Assembly: GCA_937883785.1 (NCBI GenBank)
Contig: CALGDE010000124.1
Coordinates: 1-46,179 of the forward strand
Origin: an uncultured cyanobacterium
GTDB lineage: Bacteria; Cyanobacteriota; Cyanobacteriia; CACIAM-69d
Direction of reading: 5' to 3'
DNA length: 46,179 bases
In this document: one piece after another, positions 19,395 through 40,618 of the stretch
How positions within the stretch are numbered: the stretch's first letter is position 1
How the letters are laid out: each line of letters starts with the position of its first letter
Program-made: the position numbers and the translations under genes
The notes under the pieces: generated by a model
Seen by the model: only the letters and a program-made list of their open reading frames with translations
Database searches by the model: none
Told to the model about the DNA's origin: nothing

Positions 19395-21626
19395 TTAGGT
19401 TTTCGCCGATTTTTTTGTCTCCTTGTCTTCTATCGGATCCATGTTGACAATCTCACCATTAAAAAATTCGGCAAGTTGCTTAGCGCTGCGGGTCACCTCG
19501 TCATCAGGCTTCCAATCCTTCGGGCTTTGGATTGCCGGAGGACGGTCATCGGTGATCGCTCGATCTTTGCCGTTGTCTTTGCCATTGGCGGGTGCAGCGG
19601 GACGGGAAACCACGGTCGGCGCTGCAACCTCATCCGTGGTGTCAAGCTTTGGGGGCGGCTGAGGATCTGGGGCAAAATCCACGCTGGGGTCCGGATCGGC
19701 ATTGGGGATGGGGTCAGCGGGGGGTGGCGAGGGCACTGGGGGCGATGGGGGCGGGGCGGCTCCGGTGGATTGACTCGCGGCAGGGGGAACACCAACGGTG
19801 ATTTCGATGGCGATCGCCCGTCCAAAATGGTCAGAAAACGCCTTCGCTACAGCGTCGCGCTTATCGTTAATTTTCGAGTGCCAGGTTTGGGTCGCCCCGA
19901 TATAAGCCTTGCGCCCATCAAACGCCAACAGCTTGCCCATTTGCCGCAGCAACATCTGCGTTGACGGCGGCTGCAACGTTTTCAAAATATCCAACCAAAG
20001 CTGCTCCAGATTCACATTGGGCTGACTTCCAGGAATTGCAGACTGTGCAGCCGGAATGGGAGTAGGGGGTGCGGGCGCAGGAGTCGGCGCTTTGGCAGGC
20101 GTTGGGGCGGGCGTCAGGGCAGGCGCAGGGGTGGGCTCAACTTTCGGGGGCGCTGATTGTTGCGGCGGCGGAGTGGATTGCGCGGTGTCTTTTGCGGCGG
20201 GTATTGGTGCCGGAGCTGGGGCTGGGGCAGCGATCGCCGGGATGGGCGCTGGAGTCGATCCGTTTCGCAGCCCTTGGATGGCACCGATAACTTGCTCAAA
20301 GAGCGTTGAATCTTGCTGAGCCGTTTGGGTTAACGCCGCCACCAGTGCTTGAATCCCATCCATTGCCGTGGCATCAGCAAATGCGTGGGAGTCGTTGATA
20401 CGGGTGAGCAGTTGGGCTAGGTTAGGCTGCGAGGTTGGGGCAGGTTGGGGCGTGGGCGCTGGAGCAGCGATTCGAGGAGCAGTGGATTGAGGAACTGGAG
20501 CGCTTACAGTGACTGGGGCTAGGGTTACGGGGGCGAATCCCTGGGGCAACAAACCCAACAGCGTCACCTCTAACCAAAGACGCGGCTGGGTTGTATTTTT
20601 AACTTGAACTTCGCTTTGTTTTAAATGCTTTTGTCCCTGCAATAAAAGCGGCAATTCTATTTGCGTAACGAACTCCCGAAGCTGTTGCCAAGTGGGTTCC
20701 GTTAATGCCACTAAATCGGGGCGTTCTGGTGCCGTTTTTGCCACCAACATATCCCGATAAAAACTCGCCAAGTTTTGCAGCACAATTAATGGTTCCCGAC
20801 CCCGATCCATTAACCGTCGTGCACATTCTAGAACTGCTTCACCATTGCCCTGGGCGATCGCCTGCACCAGAGTCAGCAAATCCCGCTCTGGAACTGCCCC
20901 CACCAAATCCCAAACCGCCTCGACAGTCACCCCATTAGGTAACAAACTAAGCTGGTCCAATAAACTTTCTGCATCCCGCAATCCCCCCTGAGCAATTTGC
21001 GCTACGAGAGTCAATGCTTCGGGCTTAATACTGATATTTTCATTATCCGCAATTTGCCCTAGATGATTGGTCATATCTACCAGAGGAATACGACGAAAAT
21101 CAAACCGTTGACAGCGGGAAATAATCGTCGGTAAAACTCGCTGCGGATCCGTTGTTGCTAACACAAACACAACTCGATCCGGCGGTTCCTCAAGGGTTTT
21201 TAGCAGCGAATTAAACGCCGCATTACTGAGCATATGGCACTCATCAATGGTGTAGACCTTGTAGCGACACTGCACCGGAGCAAACTGCGCCCGCTCAATC
21301 AACTCGCGAATATTATCAACGCCCGTATTACTCGCCGCATCAATCTCCACCACATCCAACGACGCCCCCCGAGTAATCTCCCGGCACACATCGCACGTCC
21401 CACAAGGTTCCGCCGTCGGTCCGTCAGCTTTCACGCAATTCAACGACTTCGCCAAAATCCGCGCACTAGACGTTTTCCCCGTCCCCCGCGGTCCCGCAAA
21501 CAAATATGCCGGCGCAATCCGGTCTTGCCCCAGCGCATTGGTTAGGGTTTGGGCGATCGCCCGCTGCCCCACCAACTGAGCAAAAGTTTGGGGGCGATAT
21601 TTATGATGAAGCGGTTCGTAAGCCAT
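19395..21626 (-). CDS. dnaX: DNA polymerase III subunit gamma/tau
   Basis: The 743 aa protein has the clamp-loader AAA+ module at residues 1-370: HHKYRPQTFAQLVGQ, GPRGTGKTSSARILAK (P-loop), a four-Cys zinc site (LNC, EPCGTCDVC) and EIDAASNTGVDNIREL. The second half is a long Pro/Ala-rich tau-type region (about 390-545 and 620-710) with a folded patch between. There is no intein in the P-loop region; some cyanobacterial DnaX proteins carry one. ATG at 21626 is chosen by homology with other DnaX starts. A gamma form by frameshifting cannot be judged from sequence alone. Confidence 0.95.
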   Translation of the reverse strand: MAYEPLHHKYRPQTFAQLVGQRAIAQTLTNALGQDRIAPAYLFAGPRGTGKTSSARILAKSLNCVKADGPTAEPCGTCDVCREITRGASLDVVEIDAASNTGVDNIRELIERAQFAPVQCRYKVYTIDECHMLSNAAFNSLLKTLEEPPDRVVFVLATTDPQRVLPTIISRCQRFDFRRIPLVDMTNHLGQIADNENISIKPEALTLVAQIAQGGLRDAESLLDQLSLLPNGVTVEAVWDLVGAVPERDLLTLVQAIAQGNGEAVLECARRLMDRGREPLIVLQNLASFYRDMLVAKTAPERPDLVALTEPTWQQLREFVTQIELPLLLQGQKHLKQSEVQVKNTTQPRLWLEVTLLGLLPQGFAPVTLAPVTVSAPVPQSTAPRIAAPAPTPQPAPTSQPNLAQLLTRINDSHAFADATAMDGIQALVAALTQTAQQDSTLFEQVIGAIQGLRNGSTPAPIPAIAAPAPAPAPIPAAKDTAQSTPPPQQSAPPKVEPTPAPALTPAPTPAKAPTPAPAPPTPIPAAQSAIPGSQPNVNLEQLWLDILKTLQPPSTQMLLRQMGKLLAFDGRKAYIGATQTWHSKINDKRDAVAKAFSDHFGRAIAIEITVGVPPAASQSTGAAPPPSPPVPSPPPADPIPNADPDPSVDFAPDPQPPPKLDTTDEVAAPTVVSRPAAPANGKDNGKDRAITDDRPPAIQSPKDWKPDDEVTRSAKQLAEFFNGEIVNMDPIEDKETKKSAKT

Positions 21627-21865
21627 AGAGGAATTTAGGGCGATCGCCTCTACTTTGTAACGGTTTTCGTTCACTCCTAAGCTCTGTTTGACTCAAACTT
21701 CAACAATCGGCGAGCGAAAAGTTACTTTCCAATAATTAAACTTCACCCAGTACTTAATAGAACCCCAGCCTATCCTAGGTGGAGTGGGCAAGTACTATTA
21801 TTTGACCGTCTCTCGCAAAAGCCCTAGGGAATTCACCGCTCCCAAACAGGGAATTACTGCTCGAC
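21627..21865. other. Divergent intergenic region between dnaX and the nuclease-STAND gene
   Basis: This 239-nt stretch holds no gene. It becomes AT-rich toward the STAND gene. No clear operator palindrome is seen. It should hold promoters for both genes. Confidence 0.4.
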
Positions 21866-24247
21866 ATGATGAATTATAAATTTGAGAATTTAAACGACAA
21901 AGAATTTGAATGCCTTGTGACTGACCTACTATCAGTTCTTTATGGAGAGCGGATAGAGCGATTTAAGTCAGGGCGAGATGGTGGAGTTGATGGACGTTTT
22001 TTCTCAGACGAAAAAAATGAAGCCATCATTCAATGTAAGCATTGGATCAAGTCTGGCACGGAAGCATTGCTTAGGTCCCTAAAGAGCAAGGAATCTGTAA
22101 AAGTCAAAAAGCTACAACCGAGTCGGTATATATTTGTCACGTCACTTGAGTTATCAAGAGAGAACAAAAAGTCAATAAAAAGAATTTTCGATCCATTTCT
22201 CAGAAGCGAGTCAGACATTTTTGGCAACGAAGATCTAAATCAACTTCTAAGTGAAAATAAAGAGATTGAAAGAAGGCACTATAAGCTTTGGATCACAAGT
22301 ACAGCCACTATTCAAACAATTTTCAACAACGCTATATTAGGTAGAAGCTTGTGGAAGCTAGAAGAAATCATAGAGCGATCCAAGTACTATGCCATAACTT
22401 CAAGTTATCGAGAAGCCGTTGACAAGCTACATAAAGTCAACACCTTGTTAATTATTGGATCACCTGGAATTGGAAAAACTTTTCTATCTGATCAACTCTG
22501 TCTCAAATACGCAGCAATTGGGTATGAGCTATTTTACATAGAGAACTCTCTTAACGAAGCAGAAGAAATATACAGCCGATCAGGAAAGCAGATTTTCTAC
22601 TTTGACGACTTCTTAGGCAGTAATTTTCTGAAAACAATAGAGTCAAGGCAGGATTCTCACCTGATCAACTTCATAAAGAGAGTAAATCGAGACAGAAATA
22701 AAAAAATCATACTAACCTCTCGAATCAATATATTGAATCGAGGAAAGCTACTCAGTGAAGTCCTTAGAATCGCAGAGATTGATGCTAATCAACACACGGT
22801 AGAAGTACAATCACCCACACACGTAGAGAAAGCAAAAATTCTCTACAACCATATTTGGATGCATTCTCTGGAAGAGAGCTATCGCAATGTCTTGTATGAA
22901 GCTCAAAGATACCTAGAAATCATCAAGCACCGAAATTTCAATCCCAGACTCATAAGCTTCATTGTTAATTCCAAGAAGCATAACTGCATCTCTCCGGAAC
23001 GGTACTGGGAATACATCACTACAACATTGTCGAATCCACAAGATATCTGGGATCACGTATTCAACAACCAGGTTGATAGAACGTGTGTGCATCTAGTGAT
23101 TGCCATCACGCTCAATGGCAACTCAGTAAGCGAAACAGGGCTCCAGTCAACTTTTAAGAACCTACTAAATAGCAGACTGAATATCAATCTTGATACACGT
23201 TATGAGTCAGCCACCAAGGTAATTCAGGGAGCATTGATCACTAAGAACTTGACCGATACAGGTGTAACAACATATACCCTATTTGAACCTTCCATTGCAG
23301 ACTTTATTATATCAAGCTACCTCAAATCAACGTCTACAGATTATATTGCTGAAATTTTAGTTTGCTTAAGAACACACAAATCCCTCCATAACTTAAGTGG
23401 ACTTATCCGCTCAAAAGCAATAACTCAATCCTTTTATGAAGGGGTTTTGAATGCAATTTTTGATCATCTCCTCAACAGCGAGAGGGAAATCACCATCGAC
23501 ACCTATAAACTACACTTCCTACTACTTGCTAGCGCGACTCCAAACTTAGCCCAGCAACATCTAAATTACATGAAAAAAATATCGAGAGTACTTTTGAAAA
23601 TTGACTCTGATCTTGTCTTCACAGATTCACACCATATCGAATTTATCAAGGTATCTCTCGACCTTGGCCTTATACCTACGGACGACAAACAATTGATACG
23701 GTGGCTTCAGAAAATTATGAGTAGCAAAATTAGCTGCGATGTTTTCCTAAGGGAAGAATTCCAAGCACTGTCAGAAATAATAGTGTGCGCGAACGTATCA
23801 GAATCTTGCTCAGTCGAATTGATCGAGAGATTCAGAAAAATTGTTGTCAGTAACTTTCGCGATAATATTACTAATCTAGCCAGTGAATGCTGCTTTCCTC
23901 AGCAAGGCAATATCGAAGATTTATGGGACTCGGATGGGTACTTTCAGACGTCTGACTGTGATTATTTGGATTGCGGCGATGACTATTGGGATTATAGTGA
24001 TCAAGTTGACGAGTTAATTAAAGATCAGGTATCAGATTTTGCAATTTCGTTAAATCCCTCGGACATCTACGATATTTGGAACGCGTGCAATATTGATGGC
24101 ATTCTCGACACGTATCAAGATCACTACTCACAAGAGGGAGAGTCTTTAGATACTCCTGAACTTGACGAGTCTGGCGACTTGTTCAGCCTGCTACTATCCA
24201 CACAGAATGATGATGATCTCATCCATGACTTGTTTTCTGCGAGTTAG
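21866..24247 (+). CDS. Restriction endonuclease-like / nSTAND3 NTPase defence-type protein
   Basis: The 793 aa protein starts with an Mrr-like PD-(D/E)XK nuclease domain: NDKEFECLVTDLL, GRDGGVDG (36-43) and AIIQCKHW with QxK at 56-58. A STAND-type NTPase follows: LLIIGSPGIGKTF (P-loop 198-205), IFYFDDF (243-249, Walker B) and IILTSR (281-286). The remaining 480 residues are mostly helical and lack recognisable repeats; an acidic Asp/Tyr-rich patch lies near 690-720. Nuclease-STAND fusions act as anti-phage sensors (Avs-type and related). It is strongly AT-rich and has no HIP1 site, unlike its neighbours, so it looks recently acquired. It stands alone between dnaX and dprA. Confidence 0.85.
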   Translation: MMNYKFENLNDKEFECLVTDLLSVLYGERIERFKSGRDGGVDGRFFSDEKNEAIIQCKHWIKSGTEALLRSLKSKESVKVKKLQPSRYIFVTSLELSRENKKSIKRIFDPFLRSESDIFGNEDLNQLLSENKEIERRHYKLWITSTATIQTIFNNAILGRSLWKLEEIIERSKYYAITSSYREAVDKLHKVNTLLIIGSPGIGKTFLSDQLCLKYAAIGYELFYIENSLNEAEEIYSRSGKQIFYFDDFLGSNFLKTIESRQDSHLINFIKRVNRDRNKKIILTSRINILNRGKLLSEVLRIAEIDANQHTVEVQSPTHVEKAKILYNHIWMHSLEESYRNVLYEAQRYLEIIKHRNFNPRLISFIVNSKKHNCISPERYWEYITTTLSNPQDIWDHVFNNQVDRTCVHLVIAITLNGNSVSETGLQSTFKNLLNSRLNINLDTRYESATKVIQGALITKNLTDTGVTTYTLFEPSIADFIISSYLKSTSTDYIAEILVCLRTHKSLHNLSGLIRSKAITQSFYEGVLNAIFDHLLNSEREITIDTYKLHFLLLASATPNLAQQHLNYMKKISRVLLKIDSDLVFTDSHHIEFIKVSLDLGLIPTDDKQLIRWLQKIMSSKISCDVFLREEFQALSEIIVCANVSESCSVELIERFRKIVVSNFRDNITNLASECCFPQQGNIEDLWDSDGYFQTSDCDYLDCGDDYWDYSDQVDELIKDQVSDFAISLNPSDIYDIWNACNIDGILDTYQDHYSQEGESLDTPELDESGDLFSLLLSTQNDDDLIHDLFSAS

Positions 24248-24274
24248 TACTATTCATCTGTGAATGCAGAAACT

Positions 24275-25537
24275 TTAGGCACGTCGATACATCATTCCTG
24301 GCAATTGAATGATCGCCCCTAATAGCTCCAATTCAATCAACCCAGCGCTGATTTTTTGTGGGGGGATTTGGGATTTTTCTACGATGTGGTCGTATAGGGT
24401 TGGTTCTGTGGCGATCGCATCATAAATAGGACGAAGATGCTCAGATATTTGAACAGGCTCGGACTCTAAAATTGGAGCTGAAGCAGGTTGAGAAATTGGT
24501 AAGTTTGACGGCTTTGGTTCAGCCTTAGACGTGGATTTTTGTGTGGCTACTTTGGAAGCGGAAAGATCTAGAGGTAACTTATCCAGCTCGGGAGTTCTTG
24601 ATAGCTTTTCAAGCAAATCATCGATGCTCAAAATCACCTGGGCACCGCAATCAATTAACCGTAAACATCCCATTGCTTGGGGATTATCCAAACTTCCAGG
24701 CAATACGTAAACGTCGCGACCGTATTCAGCGGCGGCGCGGGCAGTGATTAATGCGCCGGATTTGTAGCCCCCTTCCATTACCAGAGTGGCGCGGCATAGG
24801 GCGGCGACGATGCGGTTGCGCTGGGGGAAGTGGGAGGCGTTGGGGCGGGTGCCAGCGGGGTATTCACTGAGGGCTAATCCTAAGGCAGGCTGGTTGGTTT
24901 GGCGATCGCCCACCAGCGTGCGATAAAGGGGCTTATTTTTGCTTGGATACACCACATTCAACCCGGTGCCCACCACCGCCAGGGTCTTTCCATTTGCAGC
25001 CAGGGTAGTTTGATGGGCTTCCGTATCAATACCCTCCGCCAAGCCAGACACAATACCCAACCCCCGCCGCGCCAATGTATCCACAATACGTCGGGTCCAG
25101 CGGGTTCCATAGTCGGACGGATGACGGGTGCCCACTACGGCAATTAGGGGAAACGTGCCGTCCAGGGGGATTAGGGACGGGTCACCGCGATAGTGCAGAA
25201 TCGGAGGCGGATCGGGGATTTCTTTTAGGAGCGCTGGATAGTCCGGGTCAGCGGGGGTCCAAAATTGGGGATTTTTCTGTTCGTAGGCGGCTAAGGTTTT
25301 TTGCGGATTTATGGTGCGGGCGGTGGCGATCGCCCCCAAAGTTTTCCTCCCAATTCCCTCCACCTGACCTAGCTCCGCTTCCGGGGCAGCCCACGCTACC
25401 GCCATCGAACCAAAGGCATCGTGCACCCGCCGCAAACTGACCGGTCCCATCCCTTTCACCTGGGACCACGCCACCCACGCAGCCCGCTCCTGGCGATCGC
25501 TCCACATCTCAGAATCAGACATCTCAGAATCAGGCAT
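24275..25537 (-). CDS. dprA: DprA, DNA-processing protein
   Basis: The 420 aa protein has an N-terminal SAM/HhH region (AWVAWSQVKGMGPVSLRRV), the DprA Rossmann core (IAVVGTRHPSDYG, IVSGLAEGIDTEAHQTTL, FPQRNRIVAALCRATLVME) and a C-terminal winged-helix-like part. DprA loads RecA on incoming single-stranded DNA during transformation. The start is unclear. A 15-bp tandem repeat provides ATG codons at 25537, 25522 and 25507, and a GTG at 25591 is also open. I use 25537. It converges on the nuclease-STAND gene with a 27-nt gap. Confidence 0.93.
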   Translation of the reverse strand: MPDSEMSDSEMWSDRQERAAWVAWSQVKGMGPVSLRRVHDAFGSMAVAWAAPEAELGQVEGIGRKTLGAIATARTINPQKTLAAYEQKNPQFWTPADPDYPALLKEIPDPPPILHYRGDPSLIPLDGTFPLIAVVGTRHPSDYGTRWTRRIVDTLARRGLGIVSGLAEGIDTEAHQTTLAANGKTLAVVGTGLNVVYPSKNKPLYRTLVGDRQTNQPALGLALSEYPAGTRPNASHFPQRNRIVAALCRATLVMEGGYKSGALITARAAAEYGRDVYVLPGSLDNPQAMGCLRLIDCGAQVILSIDDLLEKLSRTPELDKLPLDLSASKVATQKSTSKAEPKPSNLPISQPASAPILESEPVQISEHLRPIYDAIATEPTLYDHIVEKSQIPPQKISAGLIELELLGAIIQLPGMMYRRA

Positions 25538-25549
25538 CTCAGAATCAGA
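25505..25549. repeat. 15-bp tandem repeat at the dprA 5' end
   Basis: Three units of CATCTCAGAATCAG(A/G) lie at 25505-25519, 25520-25534 and 25535-25549. On the minus strand each encodes SDSEM and brings its own in-frame ATG. Copy-number change would alter start choices without shifting the frame. Confidence 0.9.
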
Positions 25550-25634
25550 CAAAAAATTATAAGAAGACGGATTAGGAGAAGGCACAATCACAGCCCATGG
25601 TTTCTTAAAACGGAACTTTACAGTGGCGTTTGTG

Positions 25635-39584: not shown

Positions 39585-40496
39585 CTATTTACCTTCAAGA
39601 TTTCTAAGCAAAAGATATGCCGCGCCCAACAGACCAGAATCATTGCCAGCGCTGGCCATCTTAAGGATCAGATTTTTCTTAAAGCTAGGCATTAGCTTCT
39701 GATGTAGATTCTCCTCAATTCTGTGTAAAAGATAATCTCCCTGGGCTGACACTCCGCCACCAATAATTATCAGCTTAGGATTGAAAGAAACAACAATACT
39801 TTTTAGTCCATCAGCTATAAATCCTATCCATTCTTCCACTAATTCTTTATATAGAACATCGCCATTTCTTTCGCGTTGGAAAATCGTTTCGCCATCGATA
39901 TTATCCAGTTTTGCTAATACTTTTGCCCTAGAAATGAGAGCATCGGTTGATGCATGAGCTTCGTAGCATCCGTAGTCACCGCATCTACACTGTCGGCCAT
40001 TTTGAACAATTTTTATATGCCCAAACTCACCGGCTCCATAGTTATCTCCCCGGTAAAGCTCACCCTGATTAAATATCCCTCCACCAATGCCTGTGCCGAG
40101 GGCAATACAGATAAAAGAGTCTTCCCCAATAGCACTTCCCTGCCAGTGTTCAGCTATTGCGATGCAGTTCACGTCGTTTTCAACAACAACTGGTAAATTG
40201 AGTTTCCCTTCAAAATACCCCCTGATATTAGTCCCTATCCAGTTTGGAATTAAATCGGTGGCATAACTAATAATTCCTTGATAAAAATCCACTTGCCCTG
40301 TGGCGCTGATACCAATCCCAACTAATGGATATGCCTTAGCCATTGTGGTAATGACTTCTGCAATCCTCATAAGGATATCTGAGGCACCTCTTTTAGGATG
40401 AGTCTGTATACTTCCTTGAGAAGAAATACTGCCCTCGTCATCAACCACCCCATACTTAATCTTCGTTCCGCCGATATCTATTGCAGCAATGAACAT
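39585..40496 (-). CDS. ROK-family sugar kinase (glucokinase-like)
   Basis: The 303 aa protein begins MFIAAIDIGGTKIKYGVV (phosphate-1 motif) and has VVENDVNCIAIAEHW, ALGTGIGGGIFNQGEL, EFGHIKIVQNGRQCRCGDYG and CYEAHAS (ROK zinc site CxCGxxGC). It probably phosphorylates glucose or another hexose with ATP. ATG at 40496 follows a strong AGAGAGGAAG ribosome site, unlike nearby genes. It is AT-richer than its neighbours and has no HIP1 site, which suggests transfer, perhaps from Firmicutes. An upstream in-frame ATG at 40601 is not needed. Confidence 0.92.
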   Translation of the reverse strand: MFIAAIDIGGTKIKYGVVDDEGSISSQGSIQTHPKRGASDILMRIAEVITTMAKAYPLVGIGISATGQVDFYQGIISYATDLIPNWIGTNIRGYFEGKLNLPVVVENDVNCIAIAEHWQGSAIGEDSFICIALGTGIGGGIFNQGELYRGDNYGAGEFGHIKIVQNGRQCRCGDYGCYEAHASTDALISRAKVLAKLDNIDGETIFQRERNGDVLYKELVEEWIGFIADGLKSIVVSFNPKLIIIGGGVSAQGDYLLHRIEENLHQKLMPSFKKNLILKMASAGNDSGLLGAAYLLLRNLEGK

Positions 40497-40618
40497 CTTC
40501 CTCTCTTCTACTCTCCTTACGAAGGTTTGAGGGTGAATAACACTGCACAGAATTGGATAAAGTGCTTCAGCTCTATGCAGTATCCTACGCAATAATTTCA
40601 ACGAATAAGATAACCCTG

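Follow-up and report, generated by a model that had tools for sequence, protein, structure and literature searches.

A nuclease that waits for a phage inside the cell has to be kept silent in the meantime, since a leaky nuclease would kill the cell, and how such proteins stay off when no phage is present is a central open question for Avs-like STAND proteins. That question is raised by a gene on a contig of an uncultured cyanobacterium, analysed here over a stretch of 46,179 nucleotides (the window). The gene is an uninterrupted open reading frame running from an ATG start to a TAG stop, and its features are collected in Table 1. As the original prediction held from the letters alone, the protein joins an Mrr-like nuclease to a STAND NTPase. 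The nuclease combines the Mrr_cat fold (31.5 bits against a curated Pfam cut-off of 21) with a D and QxK active site, and a search with the nSTAND3 profile PF20720 scored 156.5 bits against a curated cut-off of 27.2, with both the P-loop and Walker B intact. The nuclease residues D38, D42, Q56 and K58 are kept in 63 of 64 non-redundant full-length homologues, the remaining one having a gap there, and R286 is as invariant among the non-redundant homologues (64/64) as the P-loop and Walker B residues. The expected helical C-terminus was also found. However, the sensor is not the roughly 480 residues that had been assigned to it, as residues up to about 513 match the ARC and winged-helix parts of NLR proteins and CED-4; this leaves a sensor of about 245 residues (515–759), followed by a linker and a tail.

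Table 1. Features of the gene and its neighbours in the window
Feature	Coordinates	Strand	Basis or remark
Mrr-nSTAND3 gene, 793 aa, PDC-S73 family	21866..24247	+	ORF; PDC-S73 E 3.5e-234 over residues 1-791
Mrr-type nuclease domain, residues 8-106; active-site D38/D42, Q56-x-K58	21887..22183	+	Pfam Mrr_cat E 2.1e-7
nSTAND3 NTPase core, residues 175-331	22388..22858	+	Pfam PF20720 E 5.4e-46
P-loop GSPGIGKT, residues 198-205	22457..22480	+	G201, G203, K204 in 64/64
Walker B FYFDD, residues 244-248	22595..22609	+	D247, D248 in 64/64
ARC/winged-helix-like part of STAND core, residues 332-513	22859..23404	+	VIA-align to NLR/CED-4
Helical C-terminal (presumed sensor) region, residues 515-759	23408..24142	+	AlphaFold helices
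Acidic variable linker, residues 760-781	24143..24208	+	pLDDT mostly <50
Conserved C-terminal tail helix DDDLIHDLFS, residues 782-791	24209..24238	+	F790 at 24233-24235
dnaX, left neighbour, divergent	19395..21674	-	NCBIfam PRK14948 E 1e-252
dprA, right neighbour, convergent	24275..25591	-	NCBIfam dprA E 4.6e-71

To place the protein among known systems we used an AlphaFold model built on 58 homologues (mean pLDDT 86, pTM 0.73). Its top Foldseek matches in the PDB were the Avs5 filament 9nc9 (E 1e-8), EfAvs5 9jap (2.1e-8) and the Avs4-portal structure 8dgf (1.4e-7), giving an Avs4/Avs5-like nuclease/SIR2-STAND-helical fold with TM-scores of only about 0.3 over the whole chain, while VIA-align matched residues ~158–513 to NLR resistosomes and CED-4 (Z ~16–18). 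The sensor region alone gave no clear fold match (Foldseek best E 0.15, VIA best Z 9.1, both to unrelated helical proteins), and phmmer and profile searches of the PDB returned mainly generic P-loop matches among the rows shown. Judging from the model, the resemblance to solved Avs proteins is by fold only. Avs4, which has an Mrr-like nuclease and senses the phage portal, shares the nuclease-STAND-helical plan, but the window protein is about half as long (793 versus ~1,540 residues), the identity over the structural alignment is 13% and no Avs-named PADLOC model was matched. In Avs5 the NTPase is again nSTAND3, PF20720 being reported there in the accessible part of PMC12931631; the effector, however, is SIR2 where the window protein has a nuclease, and that part of the paper makes no mention of a C-terminal tail latch. 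A further likeness, taken from the accessible part of the published description, is to the Mrr_cat-STAND proteins of P4-satellite hotspots, which have a STAND NTPase, C-terminal repeats and an Mrr_cat effector (PMC9122126).

We consider it likely that the gene encodes a one-protein anti-phage switch, made up of a STAND-held Mrr nuclease, C-terminal sensing, ATP-driven assembly, DNA cutting and a tail acting as a latch. By analogy with Avs proteins, we propose that at rest the protein would be a monomer whose STAND NTPase core holds the Mrr nuclease inactive, and that the C-terminal helical part would sense a phage component, this trigger being assumed because no fold could be recognised for the sensor. 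Several copies would then assemble, driven by ATP, and so bring the nuclease domains together, and the assembled nucleases would cut DNA and stop the phage, probably together with the cell. The Mrr_cat domain would equally suit an Mrr-like restriction factor that reads modified or foreign DNA directly and uses its STAND part only for power, and 15 of the 30 plasmid rows listed for relatives do carry the annotation 'restriction endonuclease'. Yet protein-sensing Avs proteins are built on the layout seen here, an nSTAND3 domain leading into an ARC-like region and a divergent helical C-terminus; the model, moreover, resembles Avs5 and Avs4, and Pfam found no separate DNA-reading domain; we regard a restriction factor of this kind as unlikely.

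The switch belongs to a family that is already catalogued, as a candidate only. In PADLOC the protein matches PDC-S73 (PDLC05079), a single-gene phage defence candidate in that catalogue, over its full length (residues 1–791, profile positions 1–750 of 752), and the same profile is matched by all 58 aligned homologues; the tail, its loss and its replacement by an SSB-like end are set out below. The name 'PDC-S73' was absent from the literature searched, and no experimental work on the family was found there, most subscription papers and preprints lying outside the scope of that search. Beyond PDC-S73, PADLOC gave only two argonaute-associated models, covering residues 2–223 and 2–149 only, and weak matches, with no Avs-named model at E values up to 1 for the window protein or at 1e-5 for the 58 homologues. 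The description of the gene as standalone nuclease-STAND is thus borne out by the full-length family match and the top Foldseek matches, and its assignment to the Avs-like group holds for the build of the protein, which makes it a possible rather than an established member of Avs types 1–5. The longer argonaute-associated match (21869–22534; nuclease, linker and P-loop part) is to Aga_TIR-PNTD1-PNTD2 (E 4.8e-40), and because this model, too, is matched by 58 of 58 homologues, the nuclease-to-P-loop module may be common to proteins encoded beside prokaryotic argonautes.

A profile-guided scan, in which 84 of 94 candidate stretches encoded relatives and 80 were kept, gave 80 family loci in named genomes. 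Further relatives lie on viral contigs (5), on plasmids (54 records, 31 of them predicted to be conjugative) and in phage records (2), and the family ranges over Pseudomonadota, Campylobacterota, Bacteroidota, Planctomycetota, Chloroflexota, Bacillota, Methanogenium and others. From 92 candidate loci we dropped seven copies, 11 cut or short ORFs and then L038, whose C-terminus looks frameshifted. Ten upstream neighbours of relatives were selected because most of them lie within a few bases of the gene and share its orientation. Scanned without a control set, they include LmuB-, PDC-S46-, PDC-S06-, type I restriction-, IetS- and OLD-like proteins; eight match some defence model at 1e-5 and two match none. 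Among the nearest neighbours of relatives (111 of 112 scanned, again without a control set) the commonest defence models were AriA (6), OLD (5) and GajA (5). Several individual loci are worth recording. A Y-family DNA polymerase lies near the gene on two viral contigs (L033 and L034, directly upstream on the latter) and on the Prosthecochloris aestuarii plasmid pPAES01 (L227); it is UmuC-like by our reading of the two viral contigs and is so annotated on the plasmid. On pPAES01 the family gene also adjoins an annotated diversity-generating retroelement consisting of Avd, reverse transcriptase and formylglycine-enzyme-like genes. On the Priestia megaterium plasmid pN447-3.2 (L230) the family member is split into adjacent 'restriction endonuclease' and 'AAA family ATPase' genes.

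As for the origin of the window gene, its AT-richness, which had been noticed from the letters, stands out against the genome: a 338-kb genome sample contains 132 ORFs that reach 300 aa, with a mean GC of 53.3% (sd 4.2), and only one of them falls below the 38.8% of this gene. The gene also lacks HIP1, as had been stated, within a HIP1-free stretch of 2763 bases (21648–24410), compared with 89 sites in the window, where 1.04 would be expected by chance, and 8376 in the 4.84-Mb genome. As a sign of acquisition, however, this gap is weak evidence that adds little beyond the low GC, because 7 of 528 gaps in the 338-kb sample are equally long; two of the 25 sampled ORFs of at least 600 aa have no HIP1 site, namely this gene and one other. 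The lowest GC of the 132 sampled ORFs (37.3%) belongs to a HIP1-free ORF of 585 aa on contig C8 of the same genome (L171 17327–19081), which from its composition is possibly another acquired gene, and the third most AT-rich (41.9%) is a 338-aa ORF without HIP1 in the window itself (39588–40601, minus strand).

The gene was found in one of 59 genomes searched, its own, and five other genomes of its family do not have it. Across 386 genomes of the phylum, matches with E <1e-100 occur in seven, this genome and six of one group (f44), while 197 match at E 0.001, mostly through short P-loop matches. A 69-row tree places the gene beside a viral contig (L032) and Shewanella surugensis (L039) with support 96, the next branch to join being Methylophaga (L037; 99), so that the sequences nearest to it come from marine gammaproteobacteria and viral contigs and lie outside the cyanobacteria. 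Because the other genomes of its family lack the gene and its closest kin are of this kind, horizontal acquisition is probable and is the simplest reading. The idea of a recent acquisition also withstood the comparison that could have undone it, the gene being neither present in all relatives nor host-like in composition, and the window gene is itself an ordinary horizontally acquired member of PDC-S73. Insertion of the single gene by a mobile element was set aside: there is no tRNA gene in the window, flanking direct and terminal inverted repeats are only short and chance-like, and no integrase was found among the nine neighbouring ORFs scanned. A second cyanobacterial-labelled member, on a 3.4-kb contig of Nostocales cyanobacterium LEGE 12452 (L111), falls inside the tail-less Bacteroidota clade described below, a placement that points to either transfer or contamination.

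The two flanking genes had been named correctly as dnaX and dprA, but the suggestion that the interval between them is a defence insertion spot did not survive comparison with relatives. Of 20 genomes, 19 yielded dprA and 18 a strong dnaX match; in relatives whose contigs allow judgement, dnaX and dprA are either separated by 140 kb or more or do not share a contig, and the interval is therefore ruled out as a shared insertion slot or defence hotspot. In the one genome of the same genus (G001, 93% complete) the gene is absent and the sequence upstream of dnaX is unrelated to it, dprA being cut by a contig end. In the genomes compared, the adjacency of dnaX and dprA is peculiar to this genome, or else to its genus, for which the one relative sampled is fragmented. 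The gene might be a STAND regulator outside defence, or an acquired gene that is decaying without a function in its host: it is a single copy of foreign composition, no defence genes were found among the neighbouring window ORFs scanned, and promoter-like sites are no commoner than in shuffled sequence. Against this, the reading frame and all catalytic residues are intact, and its relatives are found on mobile elements and in the vicinity of defence genes, which makes both variants improbable compared with a defence switch.

If the protein is such a switch, an element that may bear on how it stays off lies near its end. In the alignments most members finish with a variable acidic linker, then [I/V]xx[L/M]F and a handful of further residues, as in IDDLFERT, SIDELFNTL, VREMFKTLRE and, in the window protein, LIHDLFSAS; the last 50 residues carry a median net charge of -9 among members and of -14 in the window protein. 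Among proteins sharing <80% identity, 50 of 63 have the pattern [IVL]xx[LIM]F within their last 25 residues, compared with 21 of 441 upstream windows; for those sharing <50% identity the figures are 33 of 44 and 16 of 308. Shuffled tails of the 63 gave a mean of 1.9 and a maximum of 7. Over the C-terminal 298 residues of 58 aligned homologues the columns average 14% identity, and F790 alone is conserved at 90% or more. Judging from the alignment, the tail is not essential to the fold, because the motif pattern is missing from 11 of the 44 that share <50% identity (one of these 11, L063, has IDDVF). The tail is not described in the literature searched, which included the accessible parts of PMC8195603 and PMC11514479 and whose scope excluded preprints and most subscription papers.

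In the AlphaFold model of the whole protein, the tail helix 782–791 is placed with pLDDT ~91 although most of the linker before it falls below 50. When the fragment 496–793 was modelled alone it folded as well as before, but the pLDDT of the tail fell to 50–56, a drop that may partly reflect the fragment's own re-made alignment. By this difference, confident placement of the tail in the models needs residues 1–495, and the tail helix is predicted to clip onto the nuclease/STAND half. We propose that this short amphipathic helix, tethered by its acidic flexible linker, would fold back as an autoinhibitory latch that ligand binding or assembly must open. A beta-clamp-binding motif was considered for the tail and set aside, as the beta-clamp consensus begins with Gln, whereas the first residue of the aligned tail motifs is I, V, L or M.

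Lineages that have lost the tail offer a way of locating where it might dock. On the tree the motif appears ancestral, being present in 56 of 69 rows (55 with LF, 1 with both ends), with L062, counted as having none, carrying the variant MDDLF; it was lost twice, once in a ten-member clade centred on Bacteroidota and once in L113/L115. Of the residues shared by at least 80% of 57 rows with a tail, the tail-less Bacteroidota clade has lost ten, and five of these (323, 327, 349, 359 and 380) sit in the ARC-like helices 319–380. This amounts to 5 of 15 conserved residues in that region versus 5 of 82 elsewhere (one-sided p 0.007), for a region chosen after the positions had been seen and a main tail loss that is a single event; of 27 control clades, one reached p <0.05, with two positions. 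When the threshold is relaxed, the two tail-less lineages have positions 232, 323, 353 and 380 as losses in common, so that two of the five ARC-region losses (323 and 380) recur in the second lineage. The ARC helices around 319–380 are the most likely candidate docking region for the tail, which we offer as a lead, and the latch would most likely clip there.

What took the place of the tail in part of the tail-less clade bears on a different reading of this element. A sub-clade of six (Flavobacteriaceae; support 99) ends in DDLPF, NDLPF, DTLPF or DELPF, an SSB-type acidic [I/L]PF end that the window protein, which ends DLIHDLFSAS, does not have. The loci contain 2686 other closed ORFs that reach 100 aa; a single one of these has an acidic [ILV]PF end, and from its sequence it looks like an SSB. 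Three Flavobacterium members (L066–L068) combine an IxxLF motif with a VPF or LPF terminus. We read the SSB ends of hosts through a motif filter that gave 15 ORFs (from 41 matches in 20 of 21 genomes, 30 of which became loci): SSB ends in DLPF in 6 of the 8 Bacteroidota hosts read, and in DDDIPF in five proteobacterial hosts. A search of the SSB-tail clade against viral contigs gave no new loci.

Since SSB C-terminal ends bind partner proteins, the resemblance of these six ends to host SSBs lends some weight to a variant of the same defence switch in which the tail would be a docking peptide for another protein, either a replication/repair partner or a protease, and its fit to a groove in the model incidental. 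A ClpXP degron can be another reading of the LPF end, by analogy with some Streptococcus mutans strains in which LPF suffices for degradation by ClpXP (accessible part of PMC5143411). Nevertheless, the LPF end is limited to one clade without the ancestral motif, a single change on the tree; the motif of the window protein is followed by three more residues, leaving no free terminal Phe as in SSB tails; and AlphaFold puts the tail on the protein itself. A docking peptide for another protein is accordingly, in our estimate, a doubtful reading, if a stronger contender than a restriction factor or a decaying gene, and we continue with the autoinhibitory latch.

A bolder version of the latch can be put forward tentatively, as a possibility we would not yet bet on. 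The whole PDC-S73 family might be held in check by a helical clip on a flexible acidic linker, with the ARC of the same or an adjacent copy as the docking site, and one Bacteroidota lineage might have lost this clip and evolved a copy of the host SSB tail instead, so that the switch would depend on the replication/repair hub or on the state of single-stranded DNA. If true, evolution would here have directly exchanged the internal latch of an NLR-like immune protein for a signal that docks it to a host hub. In either version the family offers a very short, deeply conserved element, twelve residues with one conserved Phe, and in the tail-less lineage with its SSB-like end a natural experiment on tail exchange. 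If the latch holds, these would provide a handle on autoinhibition in prokaryotic NLR-like immunity.
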